From: Methylophaga sp.
Lineage (GTDB): Bacteria > Pseudomonadota > Gammaproteobacteria > Nitrosococcales > Methylophagaceae
Direction: 5' to 3'
Assembly: GCA_011053005.1 (NCBI GenBank)
Contig: DRHW01000005.1
Coordinates: forward strand, 1-64,000
DNA length: 64,000 nucleotides
Each line of letters starts with the position of its first letter. The stretch's first letter is position 1. The notes under the pieces are model-generated. The model ran no database searches. It was not told the DNA's origin and was given only the letters and a program-made list of their open reading frames with translations. Positions 18,992 to 27,419 of this stretch are shown here, in pieces. The position numbers and the translations under genes were made by a program.

Positions 18992-20113
18992 TTATTCAGG
19001 CTGCAAGATGATTGCGGCCTGATAACGCGGACGGCCATAACCTAAAATTCGGTTAAATTCCTGATGAGTAACTGGGATATACAAACTATCGGTCACGCTT
19101 TTATTTTCTTCCAAATCTATTTCAGGATCATGAAAATACACAAAGGTATCTGAAATAGAAGCCAACACGACCCAATGTGGCGATTTGCTCTGATTCAAAC
19201 GATAAGAACTAATTAATACGACGGCCAATGCCCCTTGTTCTAAATAGGATTGCAAAATAGCCACGTCTACTGGCCCCTCTTTCAGCGTCATTTTAGTCTC
19301 AGCAATCGCGACTTGAAAATCTTGATGGACTAATTCAACGACGGCTTTTTTCTCGTCATTTCGCACGCTATTTATAAAAGGCGTTTCGGTGCTGCTAGTA
19401 ATCAATGTTGTTGAAAAACCACGGTTATAAGCCGATAGCGCAAGTCCATGTGGACTACATCCACCATGACCCGATGTCATAAAAATAGTAGTGGCTTCAC
19501 GCCATAATTGAAGTTCTAAACTACGATCTAGTTCAAAATCTGGTCTGAGAGTTTTCATCACCATCATCAATGAAGCTGGGCCGCAGGTGAAATCGGTACT
19601 TTGTGAGTAATGCACGACCTGCTGATGTGCCTCTTCAGGTTCGTGATGGAGCACTTTCATCATTCTTAATGCATCAGTATGATCTTCATAATAATCGCTG
19701 ACCACATCAAACACTTCGTAGCCTAGTTTTTCATACAATCGAATCGCACCAGCATTGTCAGGTCGCACTTCCAACCGTAAAAAACTACGACCATCTTCTA
19801 AAGCTTCATGCTCTGCAATTTCCATCAACTGTTTGGCAAGACCAAGCTTTCTCTGTTCGGCTGCAACTGCCAACGAATAAACCCGGCCTAACGAAGTGCC
19901 TTGATGATAAAGCAGTAATACATAACCAACGACGTGCTTTTCAGATTCGGCCACCAGCAGCAACGCACGACCTTTGGTAATCATCCACTTGAAACTCCGG
20001 CGTGATAATTGGTCTGAATCAAAACAAGTGTTCTCTAGCTCGACCAACTGATCGACATCGCTAATAACGGCGGGTCTTATCCAAACATTATTATCAGTTG
20101 TGAGCATGACCAT
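18992..20113 (-). CDS. GNAT acetyltransferase fused to a C39-like peptidase domain
   Basis: A 373-residue two-domain protein. Residues 10-155 are a RimI-like GNAT N-acetyltransferase, with the acetyl-CoA loop at EQRKLGLAKQLM and the RLYEKLGYE motif. Residues 165-373 are a papain-like C39 domain (DUF3335 type), with candidate catalytic Cys in TDFTCGPASL, His in SPHWVVLAS and Asp in YFHDPE. There is no secretion signal, so both activities should be cytoplasmic. The fusion is continuous with no frameshift. It overlaps the upstream DUF2817 gene by 20 bases and lies next to a divergent ATP-grasp ligase, suggesting that all three act on one peptide-like substrate; the substrate is unknown. Confidence 0.82.
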   Translation of the reverse strand: MVMLTTDNNVWIRPAVISDVDQLVELENTCFDSDQLSRRSFKWMITKGRALLLVAESEKHVVGYVLLLYHQGTSLGRVYSLAVAAEQRKLGLAKQLMEIAEHEALEDGRSFLRLEVRPDNAGAIRLYEKLGYEVFDVVSDYYEDHTDALRMMKVLHHEPEEAHQQVVHYSQSTDFTCGPASLMMVMKTLRPDFELDRSLELQLWREATTIFMTSGHGGCSPHGLALSAYNRGFSTTLITSSTETPFINSVRNDEKKAVVELVHQDFQVAIAETKMTLKEGPVDVAILQSYLEQGALAVVLISSYRLNQSKSPHWVVLASISDTFVYFHDPEIDLEENKSVTDSLYIPVTHQEFNRILGYGRPRYQAAIILQPE

Positions 20114-21164
20114 CCAATCCGCTTAAACCATTTAGCCCCATCTCTATCACCTGACGGCCACGAAACAACACTAATTCCTGCCATTGTTTTTGATCGGGAC
20201 AGAAAAAATCCTGCATCGCGTATTTAATCTCACGCGTTTTGTCATCTTGCCAACTGACTTTTTGTTGTTGTAATTGCTGATCGGCAAATAAAGCACGCAA
20301 CATTTCACTGCTACCAAAAGTGCCAAATTCAAGCGTGACAAAACTGACATGGTCTCCCTGAGCATGCCAAAAATAATCATGTAAGCCCTGTTTTAAACCT
20401 GAACTAGAGGTACCTAACACTGGCTCGGTCAAGGTTGCGCCATAGATATCTACTAAGGATTGTCTAGCTGCACAATCGACCGGATGATCGCTAATCAATT
20501 CACCATGCCCATACGGACCTAAGCCACTATGTAAATCAATGACCATTACCTGCTCACGTTCTGCGAGATGAAGTTGTCCCGCTAATTGCTCAACACATTC
20601 ACGTGACCAACTTGGTTTTGTGCCACCAAAATACAAAGCCTTTTGATCTTCATATTGTCCTTCACTTAATAAATCAAATTGTTCACGGTTGCCGCCCACT
20701 GCATCAATATCGGCTTTTTTATTAATTAAATCTTGCCAGATATGAGCTGATTGCGATGTAGGCAACGGCGCAGAAAAATCGACAAAGTTACGATTAACAT
20801 CAATCCCTTCGTGATCACTTCGGCTCGCCCAAGCTAAACCCCAAGGATTTAGCGCATGCACTAATACCACGCAAACATCCGCGGGCAAACGTCGATAACG
20901 ACTTAAAAAATCCGATTGTATGGCAGAACCAATACCGCCTTCAACACCATGTAAACCAGAGACTAAAACCAACACCTTTGGTGCAGTGATATTACCTAGC
21001 CAAGCGATATCGCAAAATAATTTTTCGCCTTTCGGCCCTTTAAGTGGATGTTTATAACTATTCACTTTATCCACAATTGAGCTCATTTCAGTTGCGGACA
21101 TAAATTTTTCGCGGGCATCAGCATAACGCTGTGAAAACACATTTAAAACGGCATCGGTATACAT
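20094..21164 (-). CDS. DUF2817 M14-like zinc hydrolase
   Basis: A 356-residue protein of the DUF2817 family, related to M14 carboxypeptidases and succinylglutamate desuccinylases. Likely zinc ligands are His and Glu in SGLHGVEGGIGS (HxxE) and a later His in VIDLHSGLGPYG; the NPWGLAWASRSDHEGIDVNRNF stretch is family-typical. No signal peptide is seen. The ATG at 21164 is preferred because GGAG sits just upstream; an in-frame TTG at 21179 would include that site. It is translationally coupled to the GNAT-C39 gene. It may hydrolyse an amide or terminal residue on the product of the divergent RimK-like ligase (inference). Confidence 0.8.
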   Translation of the reverse strand: MYTDAVLNVFSQRYADAREKFMSATEMSSIVDKVNSYKHPLKGPKGEKLFCDIAWLGNITAPKVLVLVSGLHGVEGGIGSAIQSDFLSRYRRLPADVCVVLVHALNPWGLAWASRSDHEGIDVNRNFVDFSAPLPTSQSAHIWQDLINKKADIDAVGGNREQFDLLSEGQYEDQKALYFGGTKPSWSRECVEQLAGQLHLAEREQVMVIDLHSGLGPYGHGELISDHPVDCAARQSLVDIYGATLTEPVLGTSSSGLKQGLHDYFWHAQGDHVSFVTLEFGTFGSSEMLRALFADQQLQQQKVSWQDDKTREIKYAMQDFFCPDQKQWQELVLFRGRQVIEMGLNGLSGLDGHAHN

Positions 21165-21330
21165 AACACGGTTCTCCAAGTCACAAATTTTTCGCGAAGA
21201 ATAGGTGAGTTTTTAGCATTAATCCAGTAAATAAATCATCGCTGAAAAATAATTATTACACAGCATTAATAATAACTTTACTATTCGGTTTGAGGATACA
21301 CATTTCTATAAGAGGCAATAAGCCACCAAA

Positions 21331-22815
21331 ATGACTAAACACTTGATAATTATTGAAAATAAAGCAGATTGGGCGCCCTATTTTCCTAGCGTTCAGGTTA
21401 TTACTGTTGATGAATATTTACAAAACCCGTCGCAAACCAGTAAAGCACGCGCGCAAGTCATTAATCTCTGTCACAGTTTAGATTATCTTAGCCCAGGTTA
21501 TTACTGCTCAATGGTATCGGAAGCTCGCGGCCATAAAGTCATTCCTGGCTTGCGTACCATTAATGATCTATCACGCAAAAGTCTCTACGCTTACGACATC
21601 ACCGATTTAGCACCGCAACTGGATAACTTAATCTCGGCGACTGAAAATAGTGATCAACGTCCTTTCGTTGCAAAAGTATTTTTTGGTCATTGTGATATCA
21701 AACCCTTACAAAAACTGGCGCGGCAAATTTATGAACAGTTTCCTTGTCCGATAGTTGAAATTGAATTTAGTCACAAAGAACACTGGCAAATTAGTAAAGT
21801 AAAAGCAGGTGCGATTAATAAACTTACTGATCTTGAACAAGATAGTTTTGCTGATGCACTCGATAACTTTGATCGCAAATTGTGGCGTAAACCCTCTAAG
21901 AAACGTAGTTTTCGATACGACATGGCTATTTTGCATAATCCTGAAGAAAAAATGCCGCCGAGTGATGCGACCGCTTTAAAACGATTTATTCAAAGTGGTC
22001 GACGAATTGGGATTGATGTTGAACTTATTACACCTAAAGACTACAACCGTTTAGCAGAATATGATGCCTTGTTTATTCGTGAAACGACGGCGACCAATAA
22101 TCACACCTATAAATTTGCTCGTCGAGCGGAAAGCGAAGGTCTGGTTGTCATTGACGATCCGACGTCCATCATTCGTTGCACTAATAAAATCTACCTAATG
22201 GAATTATTAGCGGCTAATAAATTGCCGATGCCTGATTCCTACTTACTCTATCGTAATGATCATGCAGGAATGGATAGAATCTGTAATGAGGCAGGCTTCC
22301 CACTGGTAATGAAAATCCCTGATGGCGCCTTTTCTCGCGGCATTATCAAAGTCAATGATGCTGAAGAACTTCGTTTACATGCCGCTGAGTTTTTTCAACA
22401 ATCAGCCATCGTGTTGTTACAAGAGTTTATGTATACCGATTATGACTGGCGGATTGGCGTGTTTAATAACAAAGTCATCTATGCCTGCCAATATTTTATG
22501 AGCAAAGGTCACTGGCAGATTTATAACCACAATACGGCTAAAGGCACGATGAGCGGTAAATCAGCCGCTGTGCCGATTAGTGAAGTGCCAGAAAAGGTGC
22601 TTAAAGTTGCACTAAAATCAGCCAAATTAGTGGGTGAAGGTTTATATGGTATTGATATCAAACAAAGCGGCGAAAGAGTCGTTTTAATTGAAATCAACGA
22701 CAACCCAAGTATTGATAGTGGTGTGGAAGATGCTTATCTCGGCGTCGCTTTATACGACGATATTATGCGTGAGTTTTTACGACGACTTGAAGAACAAAAA
22801 TCCAGTAGCCATTAA
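21331..22815 (+). CDS. RimK-type ATP-grasp ligase with RLAN N-terminal domain
   Basis: A 494-residue ligase. The first about 190 residues match the RimK-like ATP-grasp N-terminal (RLAN) domain, and a RimK-type ATP-grasp core follows at about 200-485. Nucleotide-binding features include MKIPDGAFSRGIIKV and LQEFMYTDYDWRIGV, and the magnesium-binding EINDNPSID lies near residue 460. Such enzymes add amino acids, often glutamate, to a carboxylate with ATP hydrolysis. It is too long to be ribosomal RimK itself. It is divergent from the DUF2817/GNAT-C39 pair, sharing a 166-base regulatory gap, and ends at a strong terminator. Substrate unknown. Confidence 0.85.
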   Translation: MTKHLIIIENKADWAPYFPSVQVITVDEYLQNPSQTSKARAQVINLCHSLDYLSPGYYCSMVSEARGHKVIPGLRTINDLSRKSLYAYDITDLAPQLDNLISATENSDQRPFVAKVFFGHCDIKPLQKLARQIYEQFPCPIVEIEFSHKEHWQISKVKAGAINKLTDLEQDSFADALDNFDRKLWRKPSKKRSFRYDMAILHNPEEKMPPSDATALKRFIQSGRRIGIDVELITPKDYNRLAEYDALFIRETTATNNHTYKFARRAESEGLVVIDDPTSIIRCTNKIYLMELLAANKLPMPDSYLLYRNDHAGMDRICNEAGFPLVMKIPDGAFSRGIIKVNDAEELRLHAAEFFQQSAIVLLQEFMYTDYDWRIGVFNNKVIYACQYFMSKGHWQIYNHNTAKGTMSGKSAAVPISEVPEKVLKVALKSAKLVGEGLYGIDIKQSGERVVLIEINDNPSIDSGVEDAYLGVALYDDIMREFLRRLEEQKSSSH

Positions 22816-22897: not shown

Positions 22898-24970
22898 TTA
22901 GAAACTATAGCTTGCACCAACATGAAGCCCCCGCTCTTCGCCAACAAAGTAACGATCTGTCTTATTAAAAGCGTTTACATAGTTATAATCAGCACGTTCG
23001 GCATACTCGGTATTAAGCAGATTAGAAATCTCACCATATACGGCTAAACTATTGCTGACTTGATAACTTGTTCTGAGATTTAACAAATCATGACCGTCAT
23101 AGCTATGCGTATTACCTGAATCGGTATAATAACGTCCAACATGGATCCACTCTAACTCAGCACGGCTTTTTGGCATGAAATTCCAACCAAAACGAATATT
23201 AGCAAGCTGTCTAGGTGCTGCACTTATATCATCACCATTCGAAATACTATCCGAACCTAAAGGATCGCTTCCTGCATGCTCAAAGTCATATTGATGACGC
23301 GCATAGGTGAAACTACCGCCTAAATCAAACTGCTCACCAATAGGTGAAAAAGCGCTTAATTCAATACCATAATGCTGTGTTTTTCCATCAGGCACATTAT
23401 TATCTGCCGTGTCACGAAAGAAATAATGTCTTTTCTTCATATAAAACGTCGTTGCTTCATATTGGATACCATCACCTACTTTTCTGACGCCGACTTCAAT
23501 ACTATCAATTGTTTCAGAATCAGCAGTAAGTGATGTATTGGACTCTAGACGTGAACGATAAAGATCCGTCGTTTGTGGCGCACGATTACCACGCGCTAGA
23601 TTAATAAATGCACTCGTATCTTCAGTCAAAAATTGGGTTAATCCAAGTTTAGGGCTGAAGTTACTAAAATTATCTGTGCTATCCGCAGGTCGAAATAAAG
23701 TCGAACTGCCAGGTGCTAAACCATTTGAAACGTTATTATCGTACTCATACCGCGTGTACTCATAACGAGCACCTGCCGTAATTCGTGTTTTATCTGCAAC
23801 CTGCCATTCCGTATGAACATAAGGTGCAATTACTGTCGCGTCGACATCATAATCGTAGTGTGTGCCAGGAGGATATTTCCCAAATAAAGTTCTAGGGTCT
23901 GTCTGAATTTCAGATAACGAGCCTTGAGTATATTCAACGTCTGTTCCGAAAATGACTTTATGACCGCCTTCCAAATCTTTGTAATAAGCCGCTAACAAAC
24001 CCGCGCTTCGATGATCATTTTTTTCAACAGGTGTTCCGGGCAAGAAGTGCATCAAAAAGTCCATTTCGGTATAACGCACATAAGGCGTCAAACTGAAATA
24101 AGATGAATCTGTTAATTCATGATCCCATCGTGTTGATAAACGTGCTGATTTAGCATTGCGATAAGCATCTGGATTTGCATTTATTTTAGATTTGCCTGTA
24201 TTTTTATATGCTTCAAAACCTGGTGTATAACCCGCTGTTTCTTGATTTAAATTAGCCGCATTAAACACGGTTTTAAAGGTATCTTTTTCACCATAATAAT
24301 CATGGCGGAAGGTCATTTTTTGTTGATCAAAACCTGAATCATCAACATAACCACCGTCATGCGTTCCATTAATGCTAAAACGATAAGCTTGATTACCAAT
24401 CGTGTCGCTCACCGTGGCCTTGGTTTCATAAAGATCATGTGGCCCAGCCGAGACATCAATCGACCGTTCAAGATCTAATGAAGGAGCGCGAGAAAGTACA
24501 TTGATCAAACCATGTACCGCATTTGAACCATACAGAGCACTACCTGGGCCACGTACAACCTCAATACCACCTGCTTGTTCTGTGTTAGCTTCAAACAAGC
24601 CGTTTACATTGGCAAAGCCCGCAGCCCGCATTGGCACGCCATCTTCCAAATACAAAAATGAACCCGCTCCTGCTCCACCACTCAAAACAGGAGAACGAAT
24701 TGAGGTTAAATGCTCTTGACCATTTCCACGTTGAATCATGACGCCAGGAAGACGATTAATCACTTCGGAAATATGATCAGCGTGTACAAAATCAATGTCT
24801 TTTTCTGTGACTTTAGCCGTGTTACCTGCGAGATCGAGGAGTGACGTTTCCGAACGTGTGCCAGTGACAACTAAGCTATCTAAGGTGACATCACTGTCAG
24901 CAATAACGAGCGGACTAATACAGGAACTACTTAGCGCAACTAATAAAGTAACCTTTCTCAACGTGAACAT
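22898..24970 (-). CDS. TonB-dependent outer-membrane receptor
   Basis: A 690-residue receptor. A signal peptide (cleavage about residue 24, after VIA) is followed by a TonB-box-like DSLVVTGTR, a plug domain (about 45-150, with SNAVHGLINVLSR) and a beta-barrel ending in the aromatic GASYSF expected of outer-membrane proteins. Such proteins import siderophores, haem, cobalamin or other scarce ligands using TonB-ExbBD energy. No periplasmic binding protein, ABC transporter or TonB is adjacent, and I see no Fur box or cobalamin riboswitch in the short upstream region, so the ligand cannot be assigned. It is a single-gene unit bounded by the terminator at 22834-22870. Confidence 0.9.
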   Translation of the reverse strand: MFTLRKVTLLVALSSSCISPLVIADSDVTLDSLVVTGTRSETSLLDLAGNTAKVTEKDIDFVHADHISEVINRLPGVMIQRGNGQEHLTSIRSPVLSGGAGAGSFLYLEDGVPMRAAGFANVNGLFEANTEQAGGIEVVRGPGSALYGSNAVHGLINVLSRAPSLDLERSIDVSAGPHDLYETKATVSDTIGNQAYRFSINGTHDGGYVDDSGFDQQKMTFRHDYYGEKDTFKTVFNAANLNQETAGYTPGFEAYKNTGKSKINANPDAYRNAKSARLSTRWDHELTDSSYFSLTPYVRYTEMDFLMHFLPGTPVEKNDHRSAGLLAAYYKDLEGGHKVIFGTDVEYTQGSLSEIQTDPRTLFGKYPPGTHYDYDVDATVIAPYVHTEWQVADKTRITAGARYEYTRYEYDNNVSNGLAPGSSTLFRPADSTDNFSNFSPKLGLTQFLTEDTSAFINLARGNRAPQTTDLYRSRLESNTSLTADSETIDSIEVGVRKVGDGIQYEATTFYMKKRHYFFRDTADNNVPDGKTQHYGIELSAFSPIGEQFDLGGSFTYARHQYDFEHAGSDPLGSDSISNGDDISAAPRQLANIRFGWNFMPKSRAELEWIHVGRYYTDSGNTHSYDGHDLLNLRTSYQVSNSLAVYGEISNLLNTEYAERADYNYVNAFNKTDRYFVGEERGLHVGASYSF

Positions 24971-25055
24971 AAAACGCTCTCCAACTTATAATAATTTTAG
25001 TCGAGCATTGTCGCATAACCTTAAGATTTAAGACTCAGAAAAATCCTTAAAAAGC

Positions 25056-25084
25056 CTTGTAATTCCCCCTCAATGCCCCCATGT
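25056..25084 (+). promoter_or_regulatory. Sigma-32 (heat-shock) type promoter for cbpA-degQ
   Basis: CTTGTAA at 25056-25062 and CCCCATGT at 25077-25084 are separated by 14 bases. The heat-shock consensus is CTTGAAA, 13-15 bases, CCCCATNT, so only one base of the -35 deviates. The predicted start near 25091 is about 31 bases before the cbpA ATG. Chaperone and protease genes downstream make the assignment plausible. Confidence 0.65.
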
Positions 25085-25121
25085 GATGATTTAAATAAAT
25101 TTAGGTGGCTAAAGTACATTT

Positions 25122-26030
25122 ATGGAATACAAAGATTATTATCAAATTCTCGGTGTCGCACGTGATGTCTCTAAAGATGACCTCAAAAAAGCATATCGAA
25201 AGTTAGCACGTAAATATCATCCCGATGTCAGTAAAGAGGCTGATGCTGAAGCTAAATTTAAAGAATTAGGTGAAGCCTATGAAGTCTTAAAAGATCCAGA
25301 AAAACGGTCGCAATATGATCAGTTTGGTTCAAATTATAAAAATGGCCAATCTTTTACGCCACCACCAGGTTGGGGACAACAAGGTGGCCGCGGTGGATTT
25401 GATGGCAACAGCAACTTCAGTAGCTTTTTTGAAAACATGTTTGGCGGTGGCGGCATGGGCGGCGGCGGTAGAGATAATTTCTACGCCAAAGGTGAAGATG
25501 TAAACGCTAAAATTAACATTTCACTTGAAGATGCATTTCATGGCGCCCAAAAGAGCATTCGGCGGCCGAGTGGCTCAAATGAAACAGGCACACTTAATGT
25601 CAAAATTCCAGCAGGAATTACATCTGGTAAAAAAATTCGTTTATCAGGTCAAGGCCGTGCGGGCATGGGTAATATTGCCGGTGATTTGTTATTAGAAATC
25701 AATATTGCAGGACATGCTTATTACCGCTTAGATGGCAGTAATGTTTTACTTGATCTTCCGATTGCACCATGGGAGGCCGCATTAGGCGCTAAAGTCACCG
25801 TACCGACCTTGGCTGGTAAAATTAATCTTACTATTCCAGCGGGTGCCAAAAGTGGTCAAAAAATGCGCTTAAAAGGTCGTGGATTGCCCGGCAAAGAAGC
25901 AGGCGATCAAATTGTAAATTTACAAATTATGACACCAGCGGCTGATAATGATAAAGCGACAAAGTTCTACCAGCAAATGGCAGAAGAACTGAGCTTTAAT
26001 CCTCGCGAAGAATTGGAACGAACATTGTAA
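25122..26030 (+). CDS. cbpA: DnaJ-class co-chaperone, CbpA-like
   Basis: A 302-residue J-domain protein. The J domain spans residues 1-70 with HPD at 33-35, which stimulates DnaK ATPase. A Gly/Phe-rich linker (about 75-120, with runs of glycine) leads to a DnaJ C-terminal substrate-binding region without the Cys-rich zinc finger of DnaJ. That architecture and length are those of CbpA, a curved-DNA-binding and stress co-chaperone. The usual partner cbpM is not present. AGGTGG at 25103-25108 is the best ribosome-binding site, though distant. It is followed 9 bases later by degQ and preceded by a heat-shock-like promoter. Confidence 0.9.
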
Positions 26031-26039
26031 GGAGTCTTT

Positions 26040-27419
26040 ATGGCAAGAGTTAAATCTGCTCTCGTTTGGTTAGCAGCGCTTAGTTTACTGGCTCAAGTGG
26101 CCTTTGCGGGACTACCTTTTGCATGGTTTGGTGGCAATGGTGAAATGCCATCATTGGCACCAATGCTTGATCAATCAAAACCAGCGGTGGTGAATATCGC
26201 CACCAAAAGTCTGGTGCCTGTTCAAGATAATCCTTTACTCAACGATCCTTATTTTCGCCGCTTTTTTAATATTCCACCTCAACAACCACGCCAACGCACA
26301 GCCCAAAGTCTCGGTTCAGGTGTGATTTTTGATGCCCAAAAAGGCTTAGTATTAACCAACAATCACGTGATCAATAAAGCAGATCAAATCACTGTTTCAT
26401 TAACCGATGGTCGCAGTTTTCAAGCAAAAGTAGTTGGAAGCGATCCGGCGACTGATGTAGCTTTAATTCAAATTCCAGCTGAACAACTCACCGCCTTACC
26501 TCTGGCTAATTCTGATAAATTGCGCGTGGGTGACTTTGTGGTCGCAATCGGTAATCCTTTTGGTTTAGGTCAAACCGTCACATCGGGCATTGTCAGTGCA
26601 CTTAGTCGAAGTGGCTTAGGCATTGAAGGTTATGAAAATTTTATACAAACTGATGCCTCCATTAATCCTGGTAACTCTGGCGGTGCTTTAGTCAATCTAC
26701 GTGGAGAATTAGTAGGTATAAATACCGCCATCTTTTCACCCAACCAAGAAGCGAGCAATATCGGCATCGGATTTGCCATTCCAAGTAATATGGTGAAACA
26801 AGTAACCGATCAACTGCTTAAATTTGGTGAAGTACGACGCGCTCATCTTGGTGTGCAAATGCAAGATCTCACGCCTCAGCTCGCTCAAGCATTTAATATT
26901 AAATCGGATCGTGGTGCGGTTGTGACAAATATTGCCGCCGATTCAGCCGCTGCTGAAGCAGGCTTAAAAATCGGTGATATCGTGACCGCCGTTGATGGCC
27001 ATAAGTTAGTGAATGCTGATAGCTTTCGTAACTCGATCGGACTGCTACTAGTTGGGCAAACCATCAACATTGAAATATTACGTGATGGTAAAAGCAAAGT
27101 AGTAAAAGCAACCGTAAAAGAAATGCCAAAATCAGCTCAACACGGCGAAGTTCATCCAAAATTATCAGGTGCAACCTTCGGGGATATTGAACAAGGCTCG
27201 CCCTACTTTGACAAACTTAAAGGCGTTGTGATTTATTCAGTTAAACGCGGTAGTGCTGCTGATATTGCAGGTTTGCGGACGAACGATATTATTACGTCGG
27301 TTAATAAAAATCTCGTCGCTAGTTTAGAAGAATTTAAACCTTATGCTTATAGTGATGGTAAGCAATTACTTCTAAATATTACCCGCAATGGACAGGCTAT
27401 GTTTTTGATATTGCGTTAA
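26040..27419 (+). CDS. degQ: Periplasmic serine endoprotease DegQ/DegP-like
   Basis: A 459-residue HtrA-family protease-chaperone. The signal peptide (cleavage after AFA near residue 23) directs it to the periplasm. The trypsin-like domain carries the triad His109 (TNNHV), Asp139 (ATDVAL) and Ser213 (GNSGGAL); two PDZ domains follow at about 265-350 and 375-455. Length is between E. coli DegQ and DegP, and without a phylogeny either name is possible. It is the second gene after cbpA, preceded by AAGGAG. It should degrade misfolded envelope proteins; coupling to a heat-shock promoter links cytoplasmic and envelope quality control. Confidence 0.9.
   Translation: MARVKSALVWLAALSLLAQVAFAGLPFAWFGGNGEMPSLAPMLDQSKPAVVNIATKSLVPVQDNPLLNDPYFRRFFNIPPQQPRQRTAQSLGSGVIFDAQKGLVLTNNHVINKADQITVSLTDGRSFQAKVVGSDPATDVALIQIPAEQLTALPLANSDKLRVGDFVVAIGNPFGLGQTVTSGIVSALSRSGLGIEGYENFIQTDASINPGNSGGALVNLRGELVGINTAIFSPNQEASNIGIGFAIPSNMVKQVTDQLLKFGEVRRAHLGVQMQDLTPQLAQAFNIKSDRGAVVTNIAADSAAAEAGLKIGDIVTAVDGHKLVNADSFRNSIGLLLVGQTINIEILRDGKSKVVKATVKEMPKSAQHGEVHPKLSGATFGDIEQGSPYFDKLKGVVIYSVKRGSAADIAGLRTNDIITSVNKNLVASLEEFKPYAYSDGKQLLLNITRNGQAMFLILR

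Follow-up and report, generated by a model that had tools for sequence, protein, structure and literature searches.

An RLAN/RimK-type ligase divergent from a DUF2817 hydrolase and a GNAT-C39 fusion in Methylophaga sp.: a candidate set for making and turning over a short N-acetylated peptide

The window considered here is a stretch of 64,000 nucleotides from Methylophaga sp. (assembly GCA_011053005.1, contig DRHW01000005.1, positions 1 to 64,000 of the forward strand). It contains a set of three genes, for an ATP-grasp ligase with an RLAN domain, a DUF2817 hydrolase, and a GNAT acetyltransferase fused to a papain-like domain of the C39 type. Three uninterrupted open reading frames (ORFs) are at 18992-20113 (minus strand), 20094-21179 (minus strand) and 21331-22815 (plus strand). 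The features, in window coordinates, are:

21331..22815, plus strand: RLAN plus RimK-like ATP-grasp amide/peptide ligase, 494 amino acids (aa); RLAN at about 27-176 and ATP-grasp at about 284-463 by Pfam
20094..21164, minus strand: predicted DUF2817 hydrolase of the zinc-carboxypeptidase (M14-like) fold, 356 aa from the likely ATG (Pfam, model)
18992..20113, minus strand: GNAT acetyltransferase (about 8-155) fused to a C39-like/DUF3335 papain-fold domain (168-370), 373 aa (Pfam)
20094..20113, minus strand: overlap of the end of the DUF2817 gene with the start of the GNAT-C39 gene, 20 bases by ORF coordinates
21165..21330, no strand: divergent intergenic region, 166 bp, from the DUF2817 ATG to the ligase ATG

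A sequence-only reading of this DNA had described a coupled DUF2817/GNAT-C39 pair divergent from the ligase gene. The reading frames agree with this arrangement, and the 20-base overlap suggests translational coupling of the pair. The DUF2817 protein probably starts at the ATG at 21164 and not at the TTG at 21179 which opens the mechanical ORF, because the homologous ORFs of loci L030, L021 and L027 start at the equivalent methionine. A GGAG is located 9 nt 5' of this ATG. With this start the divergent gap to the ligase gene measures 166 bp and, to judge from gene geometry, presumably contains both promoters. A promoter scan returned zero sites inside 21165-21330 and, over the region, a site count not above that of shuffled sequence; promoter and terminator scans of the region together did no better than shuffles. 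When reading the three proteins no signal peptide or membrane segment was evident, no localisation program having been run.

The domain assignments of the sequence-only reading are all borne out by Pfam. In the ligase, RLAN (PF14401) is matched at 1.1e-49, with 168.4 bits against a curated cut-off of 25, and RimK (PF08443) at 3.2e-11. The protein stays below the cut-off of TIGR00768, the RimK alpha-L-glutamate ligase (100.8 bits vs 143.4). In a search of the genome it scores 102.3 bits, and two other loci pass. One of these is a canonical RimK; the other, G000:C19:128273-129100, reaches 162.1 bits. A model of the ligase (pLDDT 84.7, pTM 0.62) was used for a fold search covering residues 193-492, a span outside which the RLAN half lies. 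The match to RimK of Pseudomonas syringae has Z 27.7 and a root-mean-square deviation (rmsd) of 2.6 over 273 aligned residues; those to ArgX and LysX have Z 26.8, above the D-Ala-D-Ala ligases (Z 23.5 and lower). K286, K328, R374, D442, E454 and N456 are invariant in 76 of 76 aligned rows, and E365 is kept in 68. As modelled, the ligase is an ATP-grasp enzyme of the RimK/LysX/ArgX type by its fold (Z 26-28) and by its ATP/Mg-binding residues. RimK, LysX and ArgX use protein carboxyl ends as substrates.

The second protein belongs to PF10994 (1.6e-79), a family of unknown function. Its model (pLDDT 92.6, pTM 0.92) aligns with M14 carboxypeptidases (VIA-align: best Z 22.8, rmsd 2.9, 260 aligned), and H77, E80, H217 and E284 (numbering from the TTG) are invariant in 24 of 24 aligned rows. 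In the model the enzyme is of an M14-like (funnelin) fold with HxxE...H zinc ligands and a catalytic Glu, as anticipated by its earlier description as a zinc hydrolase resembling carboxypeptidases; carboxypeptidase activity is predicted. A sequence-profile comparison with solved proteins gave weak matches throughout, the nearest being to REP34, putative metallopeptidases and MpaA. Catalase-peroxidase structures also match weakly by sequence (E about 0.04), which was treated as chance. Foldseek matches include structures of aspartoacylase and succinylglutamate desuccinylase. An aspartoacylase-type deacylase is seen among the Foldseek matches only and in none of the 50 VIA-align rows shown; this assignment may still hold.

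The third protein combines GNAT (PF00583, 9.7e-18) and DUF3335 (PF11814, 7e-81; 271.1 bits against a curated cut-off of 25). Q171, C177 and H313 of the C39-like domain do not vary in any of the 51 aligned rows; position 329 carries Asp in 43 of them and Glu in the other 8. R88 of the GNAT domain is found in 47 of the 51 rows, G91 in 45. By sequence, the solved structures nearest to the GNAT part are N-alpha-acetyltransferases (NAA10, Sulfolobus Ard1 and RimI), and it falls just below the cut-off for RimI, TIGR01575 (82.1 bits vs 86.4). Against TIGR03103, the synthetase of N-acetylglutaminylglutamine amide (NAGGN), it scores 24.9 bits where the cut-off is 569. The alignments consist of non-redundant rows, drawn from 75 of 118 ligase, 23 of 27 DUF2817 and 50 of 65 GNAT-C39 locus proteins plus those of the window; rows with less than 85% coverage had been removed beforehand. 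The active sites had been called plausible from the sequence. Across the 76, 24 and 51 aligned homologues their residues vary little or not at all, and a loss of catalytic residues in relatives, named at the time as grounds for refutation, does not occur.

The partnership of the three proteins is unequal. For the contig scan the best 80 of at least 586 RLAN-encoding stretches were taken as loci. Neighbours were counted by tblastn over 120 RLAN loci, because longest-ORF calling gave spurious antisense ORFs in G+C-rich loci. Near RLAN were found GNAT in 111 loci, C39 in 68, DUF2817 in 27, DUF155 in 8 and GCS2 in 1. Within 3.5 kb of RLAN a GNAT is present in 111/120 loci vs 1/120 in the outer flanks (787 kb searched near RLAN, 918 kb in the flanks); in 89 loci it is upstream and divergent. 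An absence of linkage in other genomes, the other ground for refutation, does not occur either. Many RLAN loci carry a GNAT without a C39 domain. The core of the system is the RLAN ligase together with the GNAT; C39 and DUF2817 are additions.

Among 200 genomes of the phylum, 42 possess RLAN, 35 DUF3335, 29 full-length DUF2817 and 23 DUF155, the Fisher p-values for their co-occurrence being calculated irrespective of kinship. RLAN and DUF3335 are together in 34 genomes and linked in 32 of them; RLAN and full-length DUF2817 share 22 genomes, in 15 of which DUF2817 is linked to RLAN or C39. Closer to the window, RLAN is present in 14 of 59 relatives' genomes, and 8 of the 13 relatives' RLAN loci (window genome excluded) have the same trio. 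The remaining five comprise three with RLAN and GNAT-C39 without DUF2817, one with a GNAT match only and one with RLAN alone. The trio exceeds chance because it recurs in those 8 of 13 loci and because the families co-occur and are linked over the phylum. Against a tight trio stands the lack of DUF3335 in 8 of the 42 RLAN genomes and of RLAN in 7 of the 29 DUF2817 genomes. On a tree of 76 ligase sequences 5 changes are required for the state 'C39 + DUF2817', and well-supported branches force at least 4 of them, so that this association has arisen, or been retained, repeatedly; for the state 'GNAT only' 10 are required. Some of these changes may be false since locus labels depend on contig ends. 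Linkage of DUF2817 is also found in family f42 and in HdN1.

Several further observations concern the distribution of these families. Two RLAN genes each are present in genomes G114, G118 and G201. In G114 one adjoins a GNAT-C39 gene (L136), the other a GNAT alone (L135), and this pair offers a ready-made comparison for the contribution of the C39 domain. Two additional DUF3335 copies lie apart from RLAN on one contig of G252 (L126, G252:C15), and a stand-alone DUF3335 is present in G065 (L137, G065:C2), a genome without RLAN. A CorA-like transporter gene directly follows RLAN in 14 Pseudomonas-type loci (L031 and 13 others), perhaps by shared ancestry. RLAN also appears in records titled Bacteroidetes, Eremiobacteraeota and Bacteriovoracaceae (L069, L076, L090), either by transfer or in misbinned contigs. 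E. coli, one of 14 control genomes, has no match to RLAN, DUF3335, DUF2817 or DUF155. A plasmid search for annotated neighbours returned mostly unannotated megaplasmids. The flanks of the set in the window are ordinary: argininosuccinate lyase on one side, a TonB-dependent receptor and a DnaJ-like protein on the other. Following the ligase gene, 22898-27419 holds the TonB-dependent receptor, the DnaJ-like (CbpA-like) protein and a DegP-like protease, a block which recurs next to the cluster in Methylophaga loci. Among the matches listed, the closest named relatives of the locus are Methylophaga.

DUF155 (PF02582), the family of human RMND1 and of Sif2, is a candidate fourth component. It is within the cluster in L024, L043 and several f42 loci, and beside DUF3335/DUF2817 in L122. 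Of the 23 DUF155 genomes in the phylum 16 have RLAN; all 16 also have DUF3335, and in 11 of the 16 DUF155 is linked. In f42, 11 of the 12 RLAN-positive genomes carry DUF155, and no other genome of this family does (at least 35 named). All 7 DUF155 genomes among the 59 relatives are RLAN-positive. In the window's genus 5 of 29 genomes have DUF155, all of them among the 6 that are RLAN-positive, and each time on a contig other than that of RLAN; because of these separate contigs the joint occurrence is not a mere hitch-hiking of neighbours. In the window genome the gene is at L142:7979-8797 (G000:C7), with a DUF6524 gene and guaA as neighbours and on another contig than RLAN. Against the link stand the absence of DUF155 from 7 of 14 RLAN-positive relatives and from 26 of 42 RLAN-positive phylum genomes, and the 7 of 23 DUF155 genomes without RLAN, again in counts that ignore kinship. 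Among the entries listed from the open literature, a scope beyond which this negative is weak, no paper was found that ties DUF155 to RLAN or DUF3335.

What could such a set do? We propose, at a little short of an even chance, that it forms a cytoplasmic pathway for the synthesis and turnover of a short non-ribosomal peptide carrying an N-acetyl group, by analogy with the logic of NAGGN and of N-acetylaspartylglutamate (NAAG). The GNAT would acetylate an amino acid or a peptide at its alpha-amino group. With ATP, the RLAN-RimK ligase would join a further amino acid to the carboxylate of the acetylated molecule; judging by kinship with the RimK group, the added residue would most likely be glutamate or a similar acidic one. 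The C39-type domain may cut or exchange an internal amide bond, and the DUF2817 enzyme would trim from the free carboxyl end. Together the four activities would fix the amount or the length of the product. In part of the lineages DUF155, as a presumed membrane-anchored partner, may take part in the same process. Our preference is for a free rather than a protein-borne product, because the ligase is obligately paired with an acetyltransferase and not with a peptidase, as in Ngg and in NAT8L with RIMKLA/B. Locus L024:7388-10798 (G044) has the ligase between a separate C39-like peptidase gene and a gene for a GCS2 carboxylate-amine ligase, a row of genes that might be expected of a peptide-metabolite operon. 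In the same locus tblastn found no GNAT, and DUF155 is encoded three genes further on.

A number of facts weigh against this proposal. Full-length DUF2817 is missing from 20 of the 42 RLAN genomes and no DUF2817 is near RLAN in 93 of the 120 loci, so that the hydrolase may be accessory or partly a mere neighbour. Nine of the 120 loci have no GNAT near RLAN; in six of these nine the sequence on one side is shorter than 3 kb. A regular partnership with GCS2 was rejected: it is next to RLAN in 1 of 120 loci and is common anyway (150 of 200 genomes). The GNAT resembles protein N-alpha-acetyltransferases, and RimK, LysX and ArgX act on protein ends; both properties fit a protein target. Finally, kin of DUF155 act at the mitochondrial ribosome, as stated for RMND1 (PMC5264221).

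These last points lead to a reversible protein tag, the main and a serious rival, which we regard as on balance rather unlikely. The ligase would add a short tail to the carboxyl end of one or a few proteins, the GNAT would acetylate an N-terminus, C39 would remove the tail and DUF2817 would trim it stepwise. RimK and RimB act in this manner on ribosomal protein S6, and TTLL ligases and CCP carboxypeptidases on tubulin. The kinship of the ligase fold with RimK/LysX/ArgX and of the GNAT with protein N-alpha-acetyltransferases suits a tag; so do an endopeptidase-type next to a carboxypeptidase-type enzyme if the tail exceeds one residue, and the DUF155 link together with the mitoribosome association of RMND1. 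RimB takes off the glutamates added by RimK (PMC11957791). Yet no candidate protein is linked to the set, and the genome has its separate canonical RimK (277.7 bits against the cut-off of 143.4). Ribosomal protein S6 is an unlikely target, on weak evidence, because canonical RimK is kept separately and because the S6 tails show no visible RLAN-linked difference: by eye they are alike in 9 RLAN-positive and 17 RLAN-negative relatives. This sample started from 30 loci with 27 ORFs, of which that of G047 was in the wrong frame, leaving 26 tails, and it does not include the S6 of the window genome itself. That the set matures or turns over a small peptide of ribosomal origin, by ligation to it, acetylation and cleavage, we consider improbable. 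A GNAT of the N-acetyltransferase type and a papain-like domain suit peptides, and GNAT-C39 and RLAN recur together; on the other hand no recurrent small ORF was found beside the set, barely a test at a gene-call floor of 80-90 aa.

Very improbable, in our view, is a chance assembly of three unrelated housekeeping enzymes with DUF2817 linked by shared ancestry alone. The DUF2817 genomes that have no RLAN would agree with it, and so would the 7 of 22 genomes in which both are present and unlinked. Yet the RLAN-GNAT linkage is far above that in its flanks, and the linkage of DUF2817 needs several separate changes in the tree and extends to f42 and HdN1. Anti-phage defence was rejected: for the three proteins no PADLOC-DB 2.0.0 family was matched at E up to 0.01. 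A bolder conjecture, to which we give a small chance, gives an RMND1/DUF155 protein, anchored in the membrane, the part of a recruiter: the RLAN ligase, the GNAT and both peptidases would gather at ribosomes or on nascent chains and there build and edit a short tail of peptide or a peptide product. If this were true, human RMND1, a disease gene, would have its ancestor in a component of such a peptide-modifying set, and the idea would be best tested in bacteria.

To our knowledge predictions of such amidoligase-peptidase systems from genome context go back years, and few of their products are known. RLAN-RimK proteins were reportedly named by Iyer et al. in 2009 among predicted ATP-grasp amidoligase systems. 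Both RLAN and the DUF3335-GNAT fusion were named and predicted previously, and the present set is a member of a kind already predicted. The sequence-only reading had pointed to such predictions by Iyer, Aravind and colleagues, and these are real as far as can be seen from PMC10318531, where Iyer et al. (2009) is given as the source on DUF3335-GNAT fusions. The present analysis adds numbers for the core pair, the finding that DUF2817 has joined it recurrently, the modelled fold of that enzyme and, as the freshest part, the link to DUF155. Here the set is clean, compact and cytoplasmic, its host lineage is one of ordinary bacteria, its active sites do not vary and its core pair is sharply delimited. 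Should the DUF155 coupling prove functional, bacteria would offer an approach to RMND1 and its tie to mitochondrial translation.

Four known systems invite comparison. The Rlo system of Pseudomonas (RloABC) likewise has an ATP-grasp protein genetically coupled to peptidases; it differs by secreted retropepsins and a seven-transmembrane (7-TM) inactive transglutaminase (PMC12239564). Neither of these adjoins the locus, where the neighbours are argininosuccinate lyase, the TonB-dependent receptor and the DnaJ-like protein. In the glutamylation of S6 by RimK and RimB a RimK-type ligase is opposed by a peptidase, as may be the case here (PMC11957791, PMC12239564). That peptidase is a retropepsin, whereas the present set has a papain-like domain and an M14-like enzyme, plus RLAN. 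The neighbours of the ligase gene that were scanned in the window include no retropepsin, a search with a retropepsin model not having been made.

There is also a likeness to the formation of the osmolyte NAGGN (Ngg/AsnO/peptidase). Ngg, with GNAT and ATP-grasp in one protein, acetylates one glutamine and joins a second, giving an acetylated dipeptide, and a peptidase gene is part of the operon; in P. aeruginosa this operon is divergent from another gene, a regulator, as the present set is divergent (PMC8070244). The differences are the fusion of the two activities in Ngg and peptidase families other than those here. The set is not the NAGGN pathway itself: a synthetase above the TIGR03103 cut-off is absent from the window genome and present in 2 of 59 relatives. 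One of these two, G054, carries the synthetase as well as RLAN and GNAT-C39, and because it has both, the two sets are not substitutes for each other. The mammalian pathway of N-acetylaspartate (NAA) and NAAG operates without RLAN and without a C39 domain. Its aspartoacylase belongs to a family found among the DUF2817 fold matches, but the model fits carboxypeptidases first. With NAT8L, RIMKLA/RIMKLB and aspartoacylase it nevertheless assembles the same classes of enzyme as the set in Methylophaga, i.e., a GNAT (the GNATs being compared by family only), a RimK-like glutamate ligase and a zinc hydrolase (PMC3872778).

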